Shown here in pieces: positions 302 to 23,356 of a stretch of DNA of 38,809 nucleotides. The DNA comes from Candidatus Woesebacteria bacterium RIFCSPLOWO2_01_FULL_39_10 (GTDB lineage: Bacteria > Patescibacteriota > Microgenomatia > UBA8517): the NCBI GenBank assembly GCA_001793015.1, contig MGHC01000029.1:15381-54189 (forward strand), in the 5' to 3' direction. The notes below the pieces were generated by a model, which searched no databases, was not told the origin of the DNA, and saw only the letters and a list, made by a program, of their open reading frames with translations. The first letter of the stretch is position 1. Each line of letters begins with the position of its first letter. The position numbers and the translations under genes were made by a program.

Positions 302-1691
302 CCTTATTCTCTTCTAATCTCTTGAGTAGGTTTTCTCTTTCGTTTGGGACTTTTTTCTCCACGACCTCTTCGAATAATTTCTGTAACATTTCCCCGACCT
401 TTGGACTTGGTTTTATTCCTAAGACTTCCATTACATCATTACCTGATATTTTCAGATCGTGAACAGTGAAAGGTTGTTTCTGAACTTCGATAAGCCGTCT
501 TTTAAATTCCTCAAGCCTCCACGATGTTTCACGAGCGCCACCCCCCAATCGATCTCCAATTCTAAGATCAAGCATCTCAGTTATAAGATCCTGCCCAACC
601 TTTCTCAAAAAGCGTCTTACTGCAGAATCAGTTTGTCGCTCATCTACAGTGAATTGATGATATCGGACAAGGCGCCAAAGCTTATCCTTCTCCTTTTTTG
701 AAAAACGGAGTCTATCGGCAATATTTTTCGCAGTTCGCGCACCGATTACTTCGTGGTTATAAAAGGTAATTGTTCCGTTTTCTAATTTTTTGTAAGTTTG
801 TGGTTTTCCGATGTCGTGAATTAGTGTTGCAAAACGAACAATTGGGTCTGTATTTCTTTCTGCGACGTATTTCAAGGCGAGTAAACTATGCGTTCCAACA
901 TCGTATATATGGTGTCTTCCTGGGGACGCTTGTTCCACACCAAAAGTTTTTTCAAGCTCAGGTAAAATCTCTTCCGAAAGTGTTGAGTTTTTAAACATGA
1001 TAATCCCTTCGTGTGGATGAGCTGAAGCAAATATTTTCAAAAGTTCGTCTTTAACCCGTTCTTTAGAGATTTTATGAATTAAGCGAGCGTTAGCCTTTAT
1101 AGCTTCAAAGGTTTTTTCTTCGATTGTAAAACCCAGCTCAGCCGCGATACGAACAGCGCGCATCATCCGTAAGGCATCTTCAGAAAACCTCTCGTTTGGA
1201 TCTCCAACTGCACGAATAAGTTTATTATCAAGATCACTCTGTCCATCAAAGAGATCGATAATTTCAGCATCGACATTTACCATGTTGTGACTAGTGACTA
1301 GTGACTGGTGACTAGTGACTTTCAGTGCAAGGGCATTAATAGTGAAGTCACGCCGTTTAAGATCCTCTTCAAGACTTTTCCCCCACTCTACTTTGTCAGG
1401 TCGTCTTGAGTCCGAATACCCGTATTCGGTTCTGAAAGTTGTTATTTCATATGGTCTTTCGCCTTCGTTCTCGTTAGGTATTCCGACCATGCCAAAGTCA
1501 TTTGTATAATAAGAATCATCAAAAAGTTTCAAAATTTCCTCGGGTTGCGCATTTGTTGTGAAGTCCCAGTCATAGACTGACTTTGACATTAATATGTCGC
1601 GAATGGCACCTCCAACAACGTAGATTTCGAATCCTTTTTCTTCAAACTTATCTATTATTTCATGAACTTTTGGAGGAACCTTTACTTTCAT
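285..1691 (-). CDS. CCA tRNA nucleotidyltransferase / polyA polymerase family with HD domain
   Basis: GGAIRDILM, DWDFTTNA, RRDFTINALAL, RMMRAVRIAAELGF and HDIGKP motifs. Confidence 0.93.
   Translation of the reverse strand: MKVKVPPKVHEIIDKFEEKGFEIYVVGGAIRDILMSKSVYDWDFTTNAQPEEILKLFDDSYYTNDFGMVGIPNENEGERPYEITTFRTEYGYSDSRRPDKVEWGKSLEEDLKRRDFTINALALKVTSHQSLVTSHNMVNVDAEIIDLFDGQSDLDNKLIRAVGDPNERFSEDALRMMRAVRIAAELGFTIEEKTFEAIKANARLIHKISKERVKDELLKIFASAHPHEGIIMFKNSTLSEEILPELEKTFGVEQASPGRHHIYDVGTHSLLALKYVAERNTDPIVRFATLIHDIGKPQTYKKLENGTITFYNHEVIGARTAKNIADRLRFSKKEKDKLWRLVRYHQFTVDERQTDSAVRRFLRKVGQDLITEMLDLRIGDRLGGGARETSWRLEEFKRRLIEVQKQPFTVHDLKISGNDVMEVLGIKPSPKVGEMLQKLFEEVVEKKVPNERENLLKRLEENKDEKEN
1287..1321. 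repeat. Heptanucleotide tandem repeat (GTGACTN)x5 inside the CCA-adding enzyme gene
   Basis: gtgacta gtgacta gtgactg gtgacta gtgactt; encodes ...VTSHQSLVTSH... just after the RRDFTINALAL motif. Confidence 0.95.
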
Positions 1692-1717
1692 ATCTCACTC
1701 ATTATACTTCAAGGAAA

Positions 1718-1750
1718 GGATATCAGGATATCAGGATTTTAAGATATCAA
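1718..1750. repeat. Octamer-like direct repeats (GGATATCA) in the divergent CCA-enzyme/recJ intergenic region
   Basis: ggatatca ggatatca ggattttaa gatatcaa. Confidence 0.8.
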
Positions 1751-1756
1751 GAAAAA

Positions 1757-3676
1757 ATGAAAAATAATTCTTTAAAGTGGGAAGTACTCCACAAATCGCC
1801 AGTCACTAGTCACAAGTCACCAGAAATTATTGATATTCTTTTGGAAAATCGGGGACTTAACACAAAGAAACAAAAAGATGAATTTTTTAATCCTACAGAC
1901 CCTAAAAAGATAGAACTAAAGGAATTAGGAATTAGCGATAAATCTTTAAAAAAGGCAATTAAGAGGATAAAAAAAGCAATCGATAAGGACGAACATATGA
2001 TAATTTACGGTGACTATGATGCTGACGGGGTATGTGCAACAGCAATTTTATGGGAATGTCTTTATTCTTTAACTAAAAACGTTCAACCTTATATTCCCGA
2101 TCGGTTCACTGAAGGGTATGGAATGAATGCTGATACAATCTCAAAACTCAAATCGGAAAACTCAAAACTGAGACTAATAGTGACTGTAGATAACGGTATA
2201 GTAGCTAATGAGGCAATTGATTGTGCAAACGAACTAGGAATTGATGTTATCGTTGCTGATCACCATTTGGAGGGAAAGAAACTTCCAAAAGCACATTCCA
2301 TAATTCACACGACCAAGATTTGCGGATCAGCTATTGCTTGGATATTCTCTCGCGAAATCAATAAAAAACTAATCACTAGTCACACCCTCGGCCTGAGCTC
2401 GGGTCGAAGGCAGTCACCAGTCACCAATCTTGAACTTGCTGCCATAGGAACGATTGCCGATCAGATGCCACTTCTTGGACCAAACCGTTCCTTTGCGAAG
2501 CATGGACTTGAAGCGTTGAATAAAACCAAAAGACCGGGACTAATCGCTCTTTTTGAAGAAGCGGCGTTGATTGAGAGTCAAACCCGCCTTCGCCAAAAGG
2601 CTTCGGCGAGGCAAGTCGGAACTTATGAGGTTAATTTTGTTATTGCTCCACGGATTAACGCTATGGGGAGAATGGAGCATGCGATAGATTCGCTAAGACT
2701 TTTATGTACAACCAATAAACCTCGGGCTAATGAATTGGCGCGACACTTGGCAAAGACTAACCGTGAGAGACAAAGAATAGTTGATGAGATCGTTTTACAT
2801 GCAAGAAATGCTGCCCTGAAAATAAAGTGGCGAGGAGCAATTATCCTTGTCCATGAATCGTATCACGAGGGAGTCATAGGTCTAGCGGCGTCAAAACTAG
2901 TGGAAGAATTTTATCGACCTTCAATAGTTATTTCTAAAGGATCGGAATTTTCCAAAGCATCTGCCCGTTCAATTTCAGGAATTAACATAATAGAGTTGAT
3001 TAACAAAGTTGGAATTATTGAGGGCGGCGGCGGTCATCCAATGGCCGCAGGATTTACTATAAAAACTGAAAAGATTGAGAAATTTATACGAAAGTTCGAT
3101 AAAGCCACCAAGCCCTATTTTACTGAAGATGTTTTACATAAAAAACTTAAAATAGATAGTGAAATTGATTTTGAGGCGATTAATTTAGATCTTTGGGAAG
3201 TTTTAAAGAAATTCGAGCCGACTGGCATTGGGAATCCAAGACCTTGCTTTGCAACAAAACAGGTTAACGTCGCGAGTGCCAGAGTTGTTGGGGGAGATGG
3301 AAAACATTTGAAATTAAATTTGGAAAAACAAGGAGTAACTTTTGAAGCAATAGGATTTGGGATAGGAAATCTTTACGTGAACCTTTCTTCTACAAAGCCA
3401 ATCGATGTTGCATATACCGTTGATGAGAATATCTGGAACGGGAATAAAAAATTACAACTTAAAATTAAAGATATGAAGCTCCCCACGACCTTACGGTCGG
3501 GGTATCCCTTCGGTCTGAGCACTCAGGGTCGAAGACTTCTCCCCTCGCTTCGTCGGGAGCGGAATCCCTCGCGCCGTCGGCAAAGCCTTTGGCGACGTTC
3601 GACCGAAGCGAAGGTCCTTCGCTCCATCCGCCGAGTCAGACTCGGGGGTATTTCGCGAAGGGGGATAAAAGTTTAA
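1757..3676 (+). CDS. recJ: Single-stranded-DNA-specific exonuclease RecJ (DHH/DHHA1), C-terminus extended by repeat-derived sequence
   Basis: YGDYDADGVCATAIL, VTVDNG, VADHH, APRINAMGR and GGGGHPMAAG motifs; start moved from 1583 to MKNNSLKW at 1757, because the upstream ORF overlaps the divergent gene. Confidence 0.93.
   Translation: MKNNSLKWEVLHKSPVTSHKSPEIIDILLENRGLNTKKQKDEFFNPTDPKKIELKELGISDKSLKKAIKRIKKAIDKDEHMIIYGDYDADGVCATAILWECLYSLTKNVQPYIPDRFTEGYGMNADTISKLKSENSKLRLIVTVDNGIVANEAIDCANELGIDVIVADHHLEGKKLPKAHSIIHTTKICGSAIAWIFSREINKKLITSHTLGLSSGRRQSPVTNLELAAIGTIADQMPLLGPNRSFAKHGLEALNKTKRPGLIALFEEAALIESQTRLRQKASARQVGTYEVNFVIAPRINAMGRMEHAIDSLRLLCTTNKPRANELARHLAKTNRERQRIVDEIVLHARNAALKIKWRGAIILVHESYHEGVIGLAASKLVEEFYRPSIVISKGSEFSKASARSISGINIIELINKVGIIEGGGGHPMAAGFTIKTEKIEKFIRKFDKATKPYFTEDVLHKKLKIDSEIDFEAINLDLWEVLKKFEPTGIGNPRPCFATKQVNVASARVVGGDGKHLKLNLEKQGVTFEAIGFGIGNLYVNLSSTKPIDVAYTVDENIWNGNKKLQLKIKDMKLPTTLRSGYPFGLSTQGRRLLPSLRRERNPSRRRQSLWRRSTEAKVLRSIRRVRLGGISRRGIKV
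1801..1821. repeat. Heptamer repeat (AGTCACN)x3 in the recJ N-terminus
   Basis: agtcact agtcaca agtcacc; same unit (reverse complement) as 1287-1321. Confidence 0.9.
2371..2425. repeat. Composite repeat in recJ: four heptamers split by a 27-bp palindromic piece
   Basis: aatcact agtcaca [ccctcggcctgagctcgggtcgaaggc] agtcacc agtcacc; bracketed part resembles cccttcggtctgagcactcagggtcgaag in the 3471-3670 element. Confidence 0.85.
2582..2618. repeat. GC-rich palindromic insertion in recJ
   Basis: acccGCCTTCGCCaaaaggcttcGGCGAGGCaagtcgg; encodes TRLRQKASARQVG immediately before the conserved RecJ block TYEVNFVIAPRINAMGR. Confidence 0.75.
3471..3670 (+). repeat. Modular palindromic element, copy A (~200 bp), in frame at the 3' end of recJ
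   Basis: Starts ATATGAAGCTCCC, ends CGCGAAGGGGGATAAAA; near-identical over long stretches to the reverse complement of 18090-18328. Confidence 0.95.
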
Positions 3677-19005: not shown

Positions 19006-19074
19006 CTCACTCAGGACATTCGACATTATACATAGGGCCGAAGGCCATGAGCGACCGAAAGGAGTCGAATGGCT
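19006..19074. repeat. ~69-bp repeat, copy 1
   Basis: ctcactcaggacattcgacattatacatagggccgaaggccatgagcgaccgaaaggagtcgaatggctg; two substitutions relative to 20167-20236. Confidence 0.9.
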
Positions 19075-19172
19075 GGCGACTGTAGACGCTATTCGAACCT
19101 ATTTTATCACGACAAAAGAGCCTGTTTTTATCCCCTCTTTTGTATAGCTAGCTTTCGAGATATTATTTATAT

Positions 19173-20166: not shown

Positions 20167-20236
20167 CTCACTCAGGACATTCGACATTATATATAGGGCC
20201 GAAGGCCATGAGCGACTGAAAGGAGTCGAATGGCTG
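20167..20236. repeat. ~69-bp repeat, copy 2, running into the 3' end of tRNA-Gln
   Basis: Same sequence as 19006-19074; its last bases tggctg are the tRNA-Gln CCA tail, discriminator and first acceptor bases (reverse strand). Confidence 0.9.
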
Positions 20237-20304
20237 CGGGGCTAGGATTTGAACCTAGATTGCGCGGTTCAGAGCCGCGATGCCTACCATTAGCAGACCC
20301 CGCA
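20231..20304 (-). tRNA. tRNA-Gln (CUG), CCA encoded
   Basis: Acceptor TGCGGGG/CCCCGCA, anticodon arm CGCGG-CTCTGAA-CCGCG, T-arm CTAGG-TTCAAAT-CCTAG, discriminator G then CCA. Confidence 0.93.
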
Positions 20305-20709: not shown

Positions 20710-21489
20710 TTAAAATAACCCAGCTTGTTTAGTTGGTGTGTCTTTTGGATAGGAGAAATCGACCTCGACTTTTTGTAAGGTGTTCCATTTATCTTTAAGA
20801 AGAAGGTGTCCGTTTTGAAGCGCGTAGTCGTAAATATCTCGGGTAATTAACACATCTGCCTCGCAATATTTTTTTAATTTTTCCAAACTTTCCTTATCTC
20901 CCTTTTGCCAATAATATACGGCATTTATTCCCACATCCGTTTTTTCCCGATCCAGTGTTTCTTTTGCGATTGCGTCCAAGGCGATTCGATGACCAAAGAC
21001 TTCTTTGACTTTTTGCATAATGTCAAAGTGTGGAAGTTTTTGAAAAGGGAAGTTGGTGTATGGAGAAAGAGCGGGAATATCAAATCCAAGCGAATTAAAT
21101 CCAATTATCCTATCAGCACTTTGGAAAAGCGGCCACATTTTATCCCCCTTCGCGAAATACCCTGGGCGTATGCCCGCGGATGAACGCGAAGAATATTTCG
21201 CTTCGGTCGAACGTCGCCAAAGGCTTTGCCGACGGCGCGAGGGATTTCTCTCCCTACGAAGCGAGGGAGATTCATCAAAATCCTTTTCCCAGAAGCTTTG
21301 CATTTTGCCTTCGACTACGCTCAGGACAGTGTGTCCTTCGATAGTTCGATTTTGCTCACCACTAAAGCTTTCATCAATTTTTCTTGAATAAACTGAAACA
21401 ATTGAGACTCCAAGATCAGCTGGGTTAAATCCCTCAATATCTCCAAAAAGTTTCTTCGTTTCAACATCGAAAAATACTTCCGAAAGCAT
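20710..21489 (-). CDS. RNase H-like 3'-5' exonuclease (DEDD type) containing in-frame repeat insertions
   Basis: Exo I FFDVETKK, Exo II RIIGFNSLGFDIPAL, Exo III YCEADVLITRDIYDYA; repeat-encoded SPSLRRERNPSRRRQSLWRRSTEAKYSS... lies between Exo I and Exo II. Confidence 0.85.
   Translation of the reverse strand: MLSEVFFDVETKKLFGDIEGFNPADLGVSIVSVYSRKIDESFSGEQNRTIEGHTVLSVVEGKMQSFWEKDFDESPSLRRERNPSRRRQSLWRRSTEAKYSSRSSAGIRPGYFAKGDKMWPLFQSADRIIGFNSLGFDIPALSPYTNFPFQKLPHFDIMQKVKEVFGHRIALDAIAKETLDREKTDVGINAVYYWQKGDKESLEKLKKYCEADVLITRDIYDYALQNGHLLLKDKWNTLQKVEVDFSYPKDTPTKQAGLF
21138..21275 (-). repeat. Modular palindromic element, copy C (138 bp), in frame within the exonuclease gene
   Basis: Reverse complement ATGAATCTCCCTCGCTTCG...CGTCGGCAAAGCCTTTGGCGACGTTCGACCGAAGCGAA...CGCGAAGGGGGATAAAA; lacks the first two hairpins of A and B. 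Confidence 0.95.
21308..21360. repeat. REP-like repeat within the exonuclease gene
   Basis: ccttcgactacgctcaggacagtgtgtccttcgatagttcgattttgctcacc; related to 18121-18158 and 20119-20190. Confidence 0.8.
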
Positions 21490-21855: not shown

Positions 21856-22103
21856 TTGTATCGCTGCTTTCTGGCTATATGAAATGTTATTACTTTGATT
21901 CCAACCTCAATTATATCATAGATTATTCTAACGTCGTGTTCTTGGTCAATTTGGTCAACTACAGCAAAATTTCCGTATTTTGTCTTGGATCTAGATCTTG
22001 GATTTTCTAAAAATTTCCTTAATTTTCTTTTGGTGATTTTGAATTTCTTGATATCTTTACGCTTGAGTTTCTCTTCGGCGTGTTTTGTTAATATAACTTT
22101 CAT
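21852..22103 (-). CDS. DUF4258-like protein (putative toxin)
   Basis: MKVILTKHAEEKLKRKDI...VRIIYDII..IKVITFH; start trimmed from 22169 to 22103; overlaps both neighbours by 4 bp. Confidence 0.75.
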   Translation of the reverse strand: MKVILTKHAEEKLKRKDIKKFKITKRKLRKFLENPRSRSKTKYGNFAVVDQIDQEHDVRIIYDIIEVGIKVITFHIARKQRYK

Positions 22104-23356
22104 TTCCCTATGAATAAGATTACATTGGGTAAGTTGCGGCCGGGGCCGATTTTGTAGCCTCCGCTCCATAAAGCAGTTGAACCACCGTCGTCGAGATTTA
22201 GAGCATTTTCCATACCCATTGTCCGAAGTACACGTGCGGCTTCAGCAACAGTTGCTGAATGAACAACACCTATATAAACAGTATTTCCTTTGTTTGCAAC
22301 AAAACTTCTGCCTCCTTTAGAACCTTTTTTGGGATCGTCATCTCCTCCGAATGCAATATTTCCGCCTTGTACTAGCATTGGAAAATTCGAGAGCATACTG
22401 TCAATTCCAGTATCTCTACCCCATTGCGATGCCTGTCCCACGAAACGGATATATGAACCACCAAAAATAACTGCTGGATTGTTGCTGTAGACATTATTTC
22501 CAGAATTAAAGTAGGTTTTTTTATAATTCATCACCAAAAGATCGTAAGTGTTAGTTTTTCCAGCACATGAAGGGTATTCGGCAGGGCAAAAGTAGCTGCC
22601 GTTTACTCCTGCGTATGCACCGTTTCTGGAAACATATGTTGCTAAAGGAAGAACCGGGCAATCATTCGAACAATCGCTATCAGAGGCTGTATCTACAATT
22701 ACTTTTGTTGAACCCAAATCTCCTGCAACAATACTTACTAAGTATGAACCAAGTCCTTCAACAGCAACTTGCTGACGACTGTATCCAGCACCCGGTGGAG
22801 CATTATTCTGGGGAACATTAGCAGGAATTGTGAATGACGTAGCAAGTTCTTCTTCTTCTTTTTTGATTGCCGCTGTAATTTGGGAAAGCACATCGTTGGC
22901 GCCACTAAAATCTCTTTGGGAAATTTTAAATAAGACATCAGCATATTGTTTCTCGAGAGCGAGAGTGTCTTTTGATTTTGATCTTAAGTCGAGTAAATCC
23001 TCATAAACAGCAATTGATTGATTGAATGTTTTTTGCATGGTCGCAATTTCCTTTTGCAGCTCTTCATTTTTCTTTTGAGGGTCTTGATTTTTCAGTTCTT
23101 CCAACTCTTTGGCAATTTTTTCCAATTCAACCAAATTCTTATCTTTTTCTTCTGTTAAATTTTGGACGATTGTGGTGAGAGTTGTTATTTTTCTATTTGC
23201 AAAAAGATAGCCGACCGCCAGGATAATTATTAGAATAACTATTATTGGAATGTGCTTGTCGGGTTTAAAACGAAACTTTGCAAGCTTATATTTGGGTAAA
23301 TTTATCCCCCTTCGCGAAATACCTTGGGCGTAAGCTTGAGTGAGATTCATTTTCAC
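22100..23356 (-). CDS. Phosphodiester glycosidase (NAGPA-domain) family protein with coiled coil and transmembrane anchor
   Basis: GAYAGVNGSYFCPAEYPSC, NLDDGGSTALWSGG; transmembrane segment IPIIVILIIILAVGYLFA. Confidence 0.88.
   Translation of the reverse strand: MKMNLTQAYAQGISRRGINLPKYKLAKFRFKPDKHIPIIVILIIILAVGYLFANRKITTLTTIVQNLTEEKDKNLVELEKIAKELEELKNQDPQKKNEELQKEIATMQKTFNQSIAVYEDLLDLRSKSKDTLALEKQYADVLFKISQRDFSGANDVLSQITAAIKKEEEELATSFTIPANVPQNNAPPGAGYSRQQVAVEGLGSYLVSIVAGDLGSTKVIVDTASDSDCSNDCPVLPLATYVSRNGAYAGVNGSYFCPAEYPSCAGKTNTYDLLVMNYKKTYFNSGNNVYSNNPAVIFGGSYIRFVGQASQWGRDTGIDSMLSNFPMLVQGGNIAFGGDDDPKKGSKGGRSFVANKGNTVYIGVVHSATVAEAARVLRTMGMENALNLDDGGSTALWSGGYKIGPGRNLPNVILFIGK
23301..23350 (-). 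repeat. Modular palindromic element, minimal copy D (~50 bp), encoding the N-terminus of the NAGPA-domain protein
   Basis: Reverse complement ATGAATCTCACTCAAGCTTACGCCCAAGGTATTTCGCGAAGGGGGATAAA shares both termini with copies A-C. Confidence 0.85.

Follow-up and report, generated by a model that had tools for sequence, protein, structure and literature searches.

We found that the exonuclease-like gene of the window (the whole analysed stretch, 38,809 nt of Candidatus Woesebacteria bacterium RIFCSPLOWO2_01_FULL_39_10) carries, between its Exo I and Exo II motifs, a copy of a dispersed repeat (copy C). We regard this copy, with a probability of roughly 85%, as a member of a non-autonomous, MITE-like family of coding palindromes with insertion sites 3′ of TTAT or TTTAT, which survives within genes because its net length is divisible by three and up to four of its six frames are stop-free. 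The family is multi-copy, its insertion is clean when compared with homologues, and ∼20 host genes in several Patescibacteria genomes contain it in frame, with the host domains intact on both sides. An in-frame family repeat at this position of the exonuclease had been proposed from the letters of the window (the sequence-only reading), and both the alignment of homologues and the intact open reading frame (ORF) agree with that proposal. The features of the window are collected in Table 1.

Table 1. Repeat copies and exonuclease features in the window (positions count from its first nucleotide).
Feature	Position	Strand	Basis
DEDD(y) 3′-5′ exonuclease-like ORF of 259 aa that contains two additional in-frame stretches	20710..21489	-	PF13482, catalytic motifs intact, homologue in relatives
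Exo I aspartate D8 (FFDVET)	21466..21468	-	sequence
Exo II GFNSLGFD, residues 130-137	21079..21102	-	sequence
Exo III YCEAD, residues 208-212	20854..20868	-	sequence
Element copy C, read AT/GAA/TCT..GAT/AAA, frame f2, encodes ESPSLRRERNPSRRRQSLWRRSTEAKYSSRSSAGIRPGYFAKGDK, net insertion 132 bp	21139..21275	-	repeat and homologue comparison
Short hairpin repeat of an unrelated second family (CCTTCGACTACGCTCAGGAC..), adding 14 residues (SGEQNRTIEGHTVLS region) in frame before VVEGK	21307..21349	-	homologue alignment
Full-length element copy, 197 bp, 3′ end of recJ (ORF 1583-3676), frame f0	3473..3669	+	family match
Element copy, 236 bp, no long ORF through it, second-family hairpin nested in loop	18091..18326	-	family match
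Element copy of 50 bp with an internal deletion and both ends retained, N-terminus of phosphodiester-glycosidase ORF 22100-23356, frame f0	23301..23350	-	

A blastn search of positions 21120-21310 against the window's own genome (1.15 Mb, a draft of 38 contigs) returned 36 alignment rows, the best of them elsewhere in the genome at 90-92% identity; the stretch 21139-21275 is therefore a repeat and not a chance similarity. Copy C has the ends that are common to the family (TTTATCCCCC...GATTCAT) and a length of 137 bp. It lacks the 5′ hairpin (coding orientation) of full copies, being 30 bp, or 10 codons, shorter than its closest relatives (137 versus 167 bp). Both the ends (ATGAAGCTCC...GAAGGGGGATAAA in coding orientation) and a set of hairpins are common to the aligned copies, and full copies measure ∼131-239 bp, the longer ones containing one more hairpin module or, nested within them, a hairpin of a second family. 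A covariance model of the family (R1) detected ∼22 strong copies in this genome, which, together with the consensus helices, fit the short dispersed palindromic repeats (∼100-200 bp) of a class like the Rickettsia palindromic elements (RPEs). At least one two-sided change was present in 7 of the 18 predicted pairs of these helices, with an overall covariation term near zero. An Rfam scan returned two tRNAs only, the element itself matching no known RNA family, and the insert peptides had no match at E ≤ 1 in NCBIfam, a library that presumably includes the RPE domain models. A further subfamily of ∼145-160 bp that starts with TTAATCCGCCTTCGC occurs in genome G000 (C7:29482, C27:46146, C29:9363, C31:5626 and C33:4472). 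At the end of recJ, the element is followed by one native codon and the stop, 4 bp ahead of a RelA/SpoT-like ORF; this native stop appears to have been kept, the net length of the element being a multiple of three.

Beyond this genome, R1 matches at E ≤ 0.01 were present in 39 of 142 relatives, a count that includes the window's own genome and whose weakest members lie near the threshold. A diagnostic 29-mer occurred in 21 stretches among 85,462 species genomes, each of which bears the title of a Patescibacteria lineage (Woese-, Davies-, Gottesman-, Ames- and Levybacteria, a Microgenomates group bacterium, unassigned Patescibacteria and one Uhrbacteria), and had no match among viral contigs. 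The element-bearing matches are metagenome-assembled genomes.

To what extent these copies lie within genes was assessed with an empty-site test, in which the flanks of a copy were joined by script, an ORF open for at least 30 codons on each side was sought, and the filled ORF was then checked. In eighteen cases, such an ORF surrounded the copy and remained open across it, and two more copies (in an AbiEii-like ORF and in a Gottesmanbacteria sortase) bring the number to ∼20 host ORFs; with the likely start codon taken into account, some of these insertions are N-terminal. These unrelated ORFs were entered without a break of the frame, again as in an RPE-like class. According to Pfam and NCBIfam, the hosts are UvrA, GatB, a Sua5/TsaC fused to TsaE, two DHH proteins (one of them RecJ-like), MurF, FemAB, TIM (TpiA), Ribul_P_3_epim, DUF2298 and DUF4012 membrane proteins, PPDK_N, AbiEii, sortases and a VanW-type protein. 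Three further copies extend termini, namely the N-termini of a NUDIX protein and a sortase and the C-terminus of recJ in the window. The insert of UvrA coincides with a linker of ∼10 residues in PDB 2r6f, on either side of which the alignment is strong. Relatives with a gatB gene, among them this genome, lack the insert of GatB: their matches break off at residues 127-131 and in most cases pick up again at 174-181. For TsaC and TpiA, both flanks of the insert could likewise be aligned, the N-terminal one of TpiA only weakly. Among the internal copies, 13 use frame f2, 5 use r2 and 2 use r1, so that both orientations occur. For annotators, this is a warning that unexplained stretches of 40-60 aa in Patescibacteria proteins (e.g. 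xRRExNPSEAxxSSxSS..FSAKGDK) can be mobile-element peptide.

Frames f2 and f0 of one strand, and r1 and r2 of the other, are often open in the element. Among non-genic copies, 62% were open in f2 compared with 24% expected from Markov-simulated sequences, so that coding capacity is intrinsic to the family. A length of 2 mod 3, which equals a net multiple of three after subtraction of 5 target-like bases, was found for all 23 genic copies and for 34 of the 47 others (Fisher p = 0.003), a comparison that is circular in part, since any copy that broke the frame of its gene would have dropped out of the genic class, and in which the copies share descent. In genome G052, this length class was kept in four of four genic copies and in none of five others. 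The less circular joined-flank test yielded one convincing broken gene, a zinc-carboxypeptidase-like ORF (identified by eye) that is split into 114 + 176 codons by a copy with stops (L063; G000:C1:23786-23919); the other broken cases were shorter or antisense ORFs, i.e. putative genes. L063 is a frame-incompatible insertion that escaped purging. Gene-compatible copies look like the survivors of random insertion and subsequent purifying selection, by which frame-breaking insertions would have been removed. A bolder idea, which we consider rather doubtful, is that of a Patescibacteria-wide mobile class that evolved for gene compatibility, with up to four of six frames stop-free, a net multiple of three and hairpin modules swapped in whole codons. 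If true, such a class could settle, in either orientation, in the essential genes of minimal genomes with a high gene density, seeding new protein segments.

The same observations bear on whether the element reaches the protein. It might be cut from the mRNA or bypassed by the ribosome, leaving a protein without the insert, and such a process would suit both the presence of the family in housekeeping genes and the folding of copy C, which is moderately more stable than that of shuffled sequences (z = -2.2). However, neither an open frame nor a multiple-of-three length would then be needed, and genic copies show both; moreover, copies are read in three frame/orientation combinations, and the stops of L063 break the host ORF. 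We consider removal or bypass improbable. For a translated coding palindrome, the reading that we prefer, the 44 additional residues would be part of the protein and would be kept as a loop in an active exonuclease.

The exonuclease ORF itself is intact and contains no stop. It matched RNase_H_2 (PF13482) with E = 1.5e-10 in a Pfam profile search and has kept Exo I (FFDVETKK), Exo II (IIGFNSLGFDIPAL) and Exo III (YCEADVLITRDIYDYA), in line with the earlier statement that the catalytic motifs on either side of the insert are intact. Together with this profile match, D8/E10, D137, D212 and the YxxxD motif identify a DEDD exonuclease (RNase_H_2 / PolB exo2-like). When compared with homologues, the flanks gave a pN of 0.11-0.31 and a pS of 0.72-0.91, with dS mostly saturated and a proper dN/dS largely impossible. 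Since pN is lower than pS, the exonuclease has been under purifying selection, which the sequence-only reading had proposed for the frame; selection after the insertion cannot be proven from pN/pS alone, as this ratio averages over a long divergence. It is quite improbable that the gene is a decaying pseudogene whose frame is open by chance. GC-rich repeats are indeed stop-poor, and about a quarter to a third of the Markov-simulated sequences of matching composition were open per frame, but the catalytic motifs are all intact, pN is well below pS, and GatB, UvrA, TpiA and other hosts likewise carry the element in frame and are stop-free elsewhere in the ORF. The insert, which is R/S-rich and falls on the disordered side of the charge-hydropathy plot, lies between the KMQSFW and MWPLF segments. 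A PDB search with the exonuclease returned polymerase-delta exonuclease matches alone, too weak for placing the insert, and AlphaFold on the single sequence gave a mean pLDDT of 32, too low to be of use. From the intact motifs, the conserved flanks and the many parallel cases, we infer that the site is a tolerated loop.

A protein match to the exonuclease was found in 75 of the 142 related genomes, most of these being homologues and a few matching via the element alone. The homologues, stop-free ORFs of ∼200-220 aa, usually matched as two segments with their junction at query residues ∼72 and ∼117. At the site between DF and MW (e.g. FWEKDFEH/MWPIF), each aligned homologue has 2 residues, whereas 46 are present here, giving a net insertion of 44 codons, or 132 bp; DFDKMW in one relative is what the window would be expected to read without the element. 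The size first given for the insert, 138 bp or 46 codons (21138-21275), was thus too large, as this count takes in target-like bases, and the shared ends delimit 137 bp. Alignment with insert-free homologues had been set beforehand as the check, and a comparable native loop is absent from the alignable ones, so the refutation fails. This alignment already refutes the very improbable alternative that the stretch is a native variable loop of the exonuclease family and no inserted element, which has the loop position in its favour and nothing more; its DNA also recurs at ∼22 places in the genome and in unrelated genes. A chimeric assembly at a repeat is just as remote: repeats cause misjoins and the genome is a draft, but the flanks are two halves of one gene in conserved order, orientation and frame, and the pattern recurs in genomes from separate assemblies, one of which (G008) consists of a single contig.

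The core motif of the second repeat family was present at 17 sites in the genome, compared with none for a reversed-pattern control. At the position of its 14-residue stretch, a homologue in genome G014 has a different addition of 9-10 residues. The two extra stretches indicate that two repeat families have added codons to the exonuclease in frame, within ∼30 residues of each other. Second-family hairpins (CCTTCGACAGGCTCAGGATGGTGAGC..GTCGAACCAT) are also nested in loops of the first family, in the 236-bp copy of the window and in G000 C6, C11 and C20, often as multiples of three. Separately, the window contains a 70-bp direct repeat pair (CTCACTCAGGACATTCGACATTATA..) of 97% identity at 19006-19075 and 20167-20236, the second copy of which adjoins a tRNA gene (20234-20304).

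In the non-coding orientation, the left end of the element is TTAT/CC in most copies and TTAG in a subfamily, and 59 of 73 copies have NTTATC at one end. The right end is TTCAT or TTCAA, and the flanks beyond are without a strong consensus. There was no target duplication beyond the AT common to both ends, and a 2-bp duplication is thus possible. A fixed tetranucleotide, subterminal hairpins and the lack of a long duplication resemble IS200/IS605 or REP/RAYT systems. By this analogy, insertion 3′ of TTAT with a duplication of at most 2 bp hints at IS200/IS605-type (Y1) mobilisation, in which the element, folded as a single strand, might be moved in trans by a Y1 transposase (IS200/IS605- or RAYT-type). 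Eight Y1_Tnp matches occur in the genome, seven of them over the cut-off; no family ends were found at these eight loci of the incomplete assembly. Similarly, no autonomous parent was found by left-end and right-end patterns or by element similarity near Y1 ORFs, and the loci surrounding the 73 copies yielded no Y1 motif when scanned. The only R1 copy tied to a Y1 ORF is diverged and lies in frame inside that ORF (L165:375-489; G000:C10).

Several known systems share some of these features. REP/REPIN elements and IS200/IS605-type MITEs are similar in their imperfect hairpins near both ends, TTAT at one end, the lack of a long duplication and the Y1 ORFs in the genome, but no transposase with matching ends was found here, and many copies are genic rather than mainly extragenic. 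QMITE1 and QMITE2 of Coxiella (PMC5896051) are likewise small non-autonomous repeats that are sometimes in frame or extend C-termini, as does the recJ copy; QMITE2, however, has direct repeats of 7-11 nt and resides mainly in 3′ UTRs and intergenic regions, whereas the Patescibacteria family has a duplication of at most 2 bp and many internal insertions. PARCELs (PMC2996958) are also palindromic DNA encoding protein, but form repeat arrays and not single dispersed copies in housekeeping genes. The same paper cites in-frame coding palindromes from Wolbachia and Methanocaldococcus. RPEs (Ogata 2000, 2002), as summarised in a 2024 review, are ∼150 bp long, and nearly half of them lie in ORFs, in frame; the review calls the same in other prokaryotes 'conceivable' (PMC10969869). 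Our search of the open-access literature found no paper on palindromic elements in Patescibacteria. RPEs are the closest precedent for the family described here, which like them and the Wolbachia elements (WPEs) consists of dispersed palindromic repeats (100-150 bp) that keep the frame of unrelated housekeeping ORFs in small genomes. It differs from both in being apparently unrelated in sequence, in belonging to another phylum and in occurring in both orientations and three frames. Here, a family of coding palindromes that is apparently unrelated in sequence occupies core genes in the Candidate Phyla Radiation. Furthermore, RPE inserts are shared at the same locus by Rickettsia orthologues, as reported for R. 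japonica (PMC3767692), whereas the insertions checked here are lineage-specific and recent enough for relatives to show the empty site. The long-standing question of whether palindromic elements drive the evolution of proteins or are simply tolerated thereby becomes accessible to direct comparison and simple enzymology.
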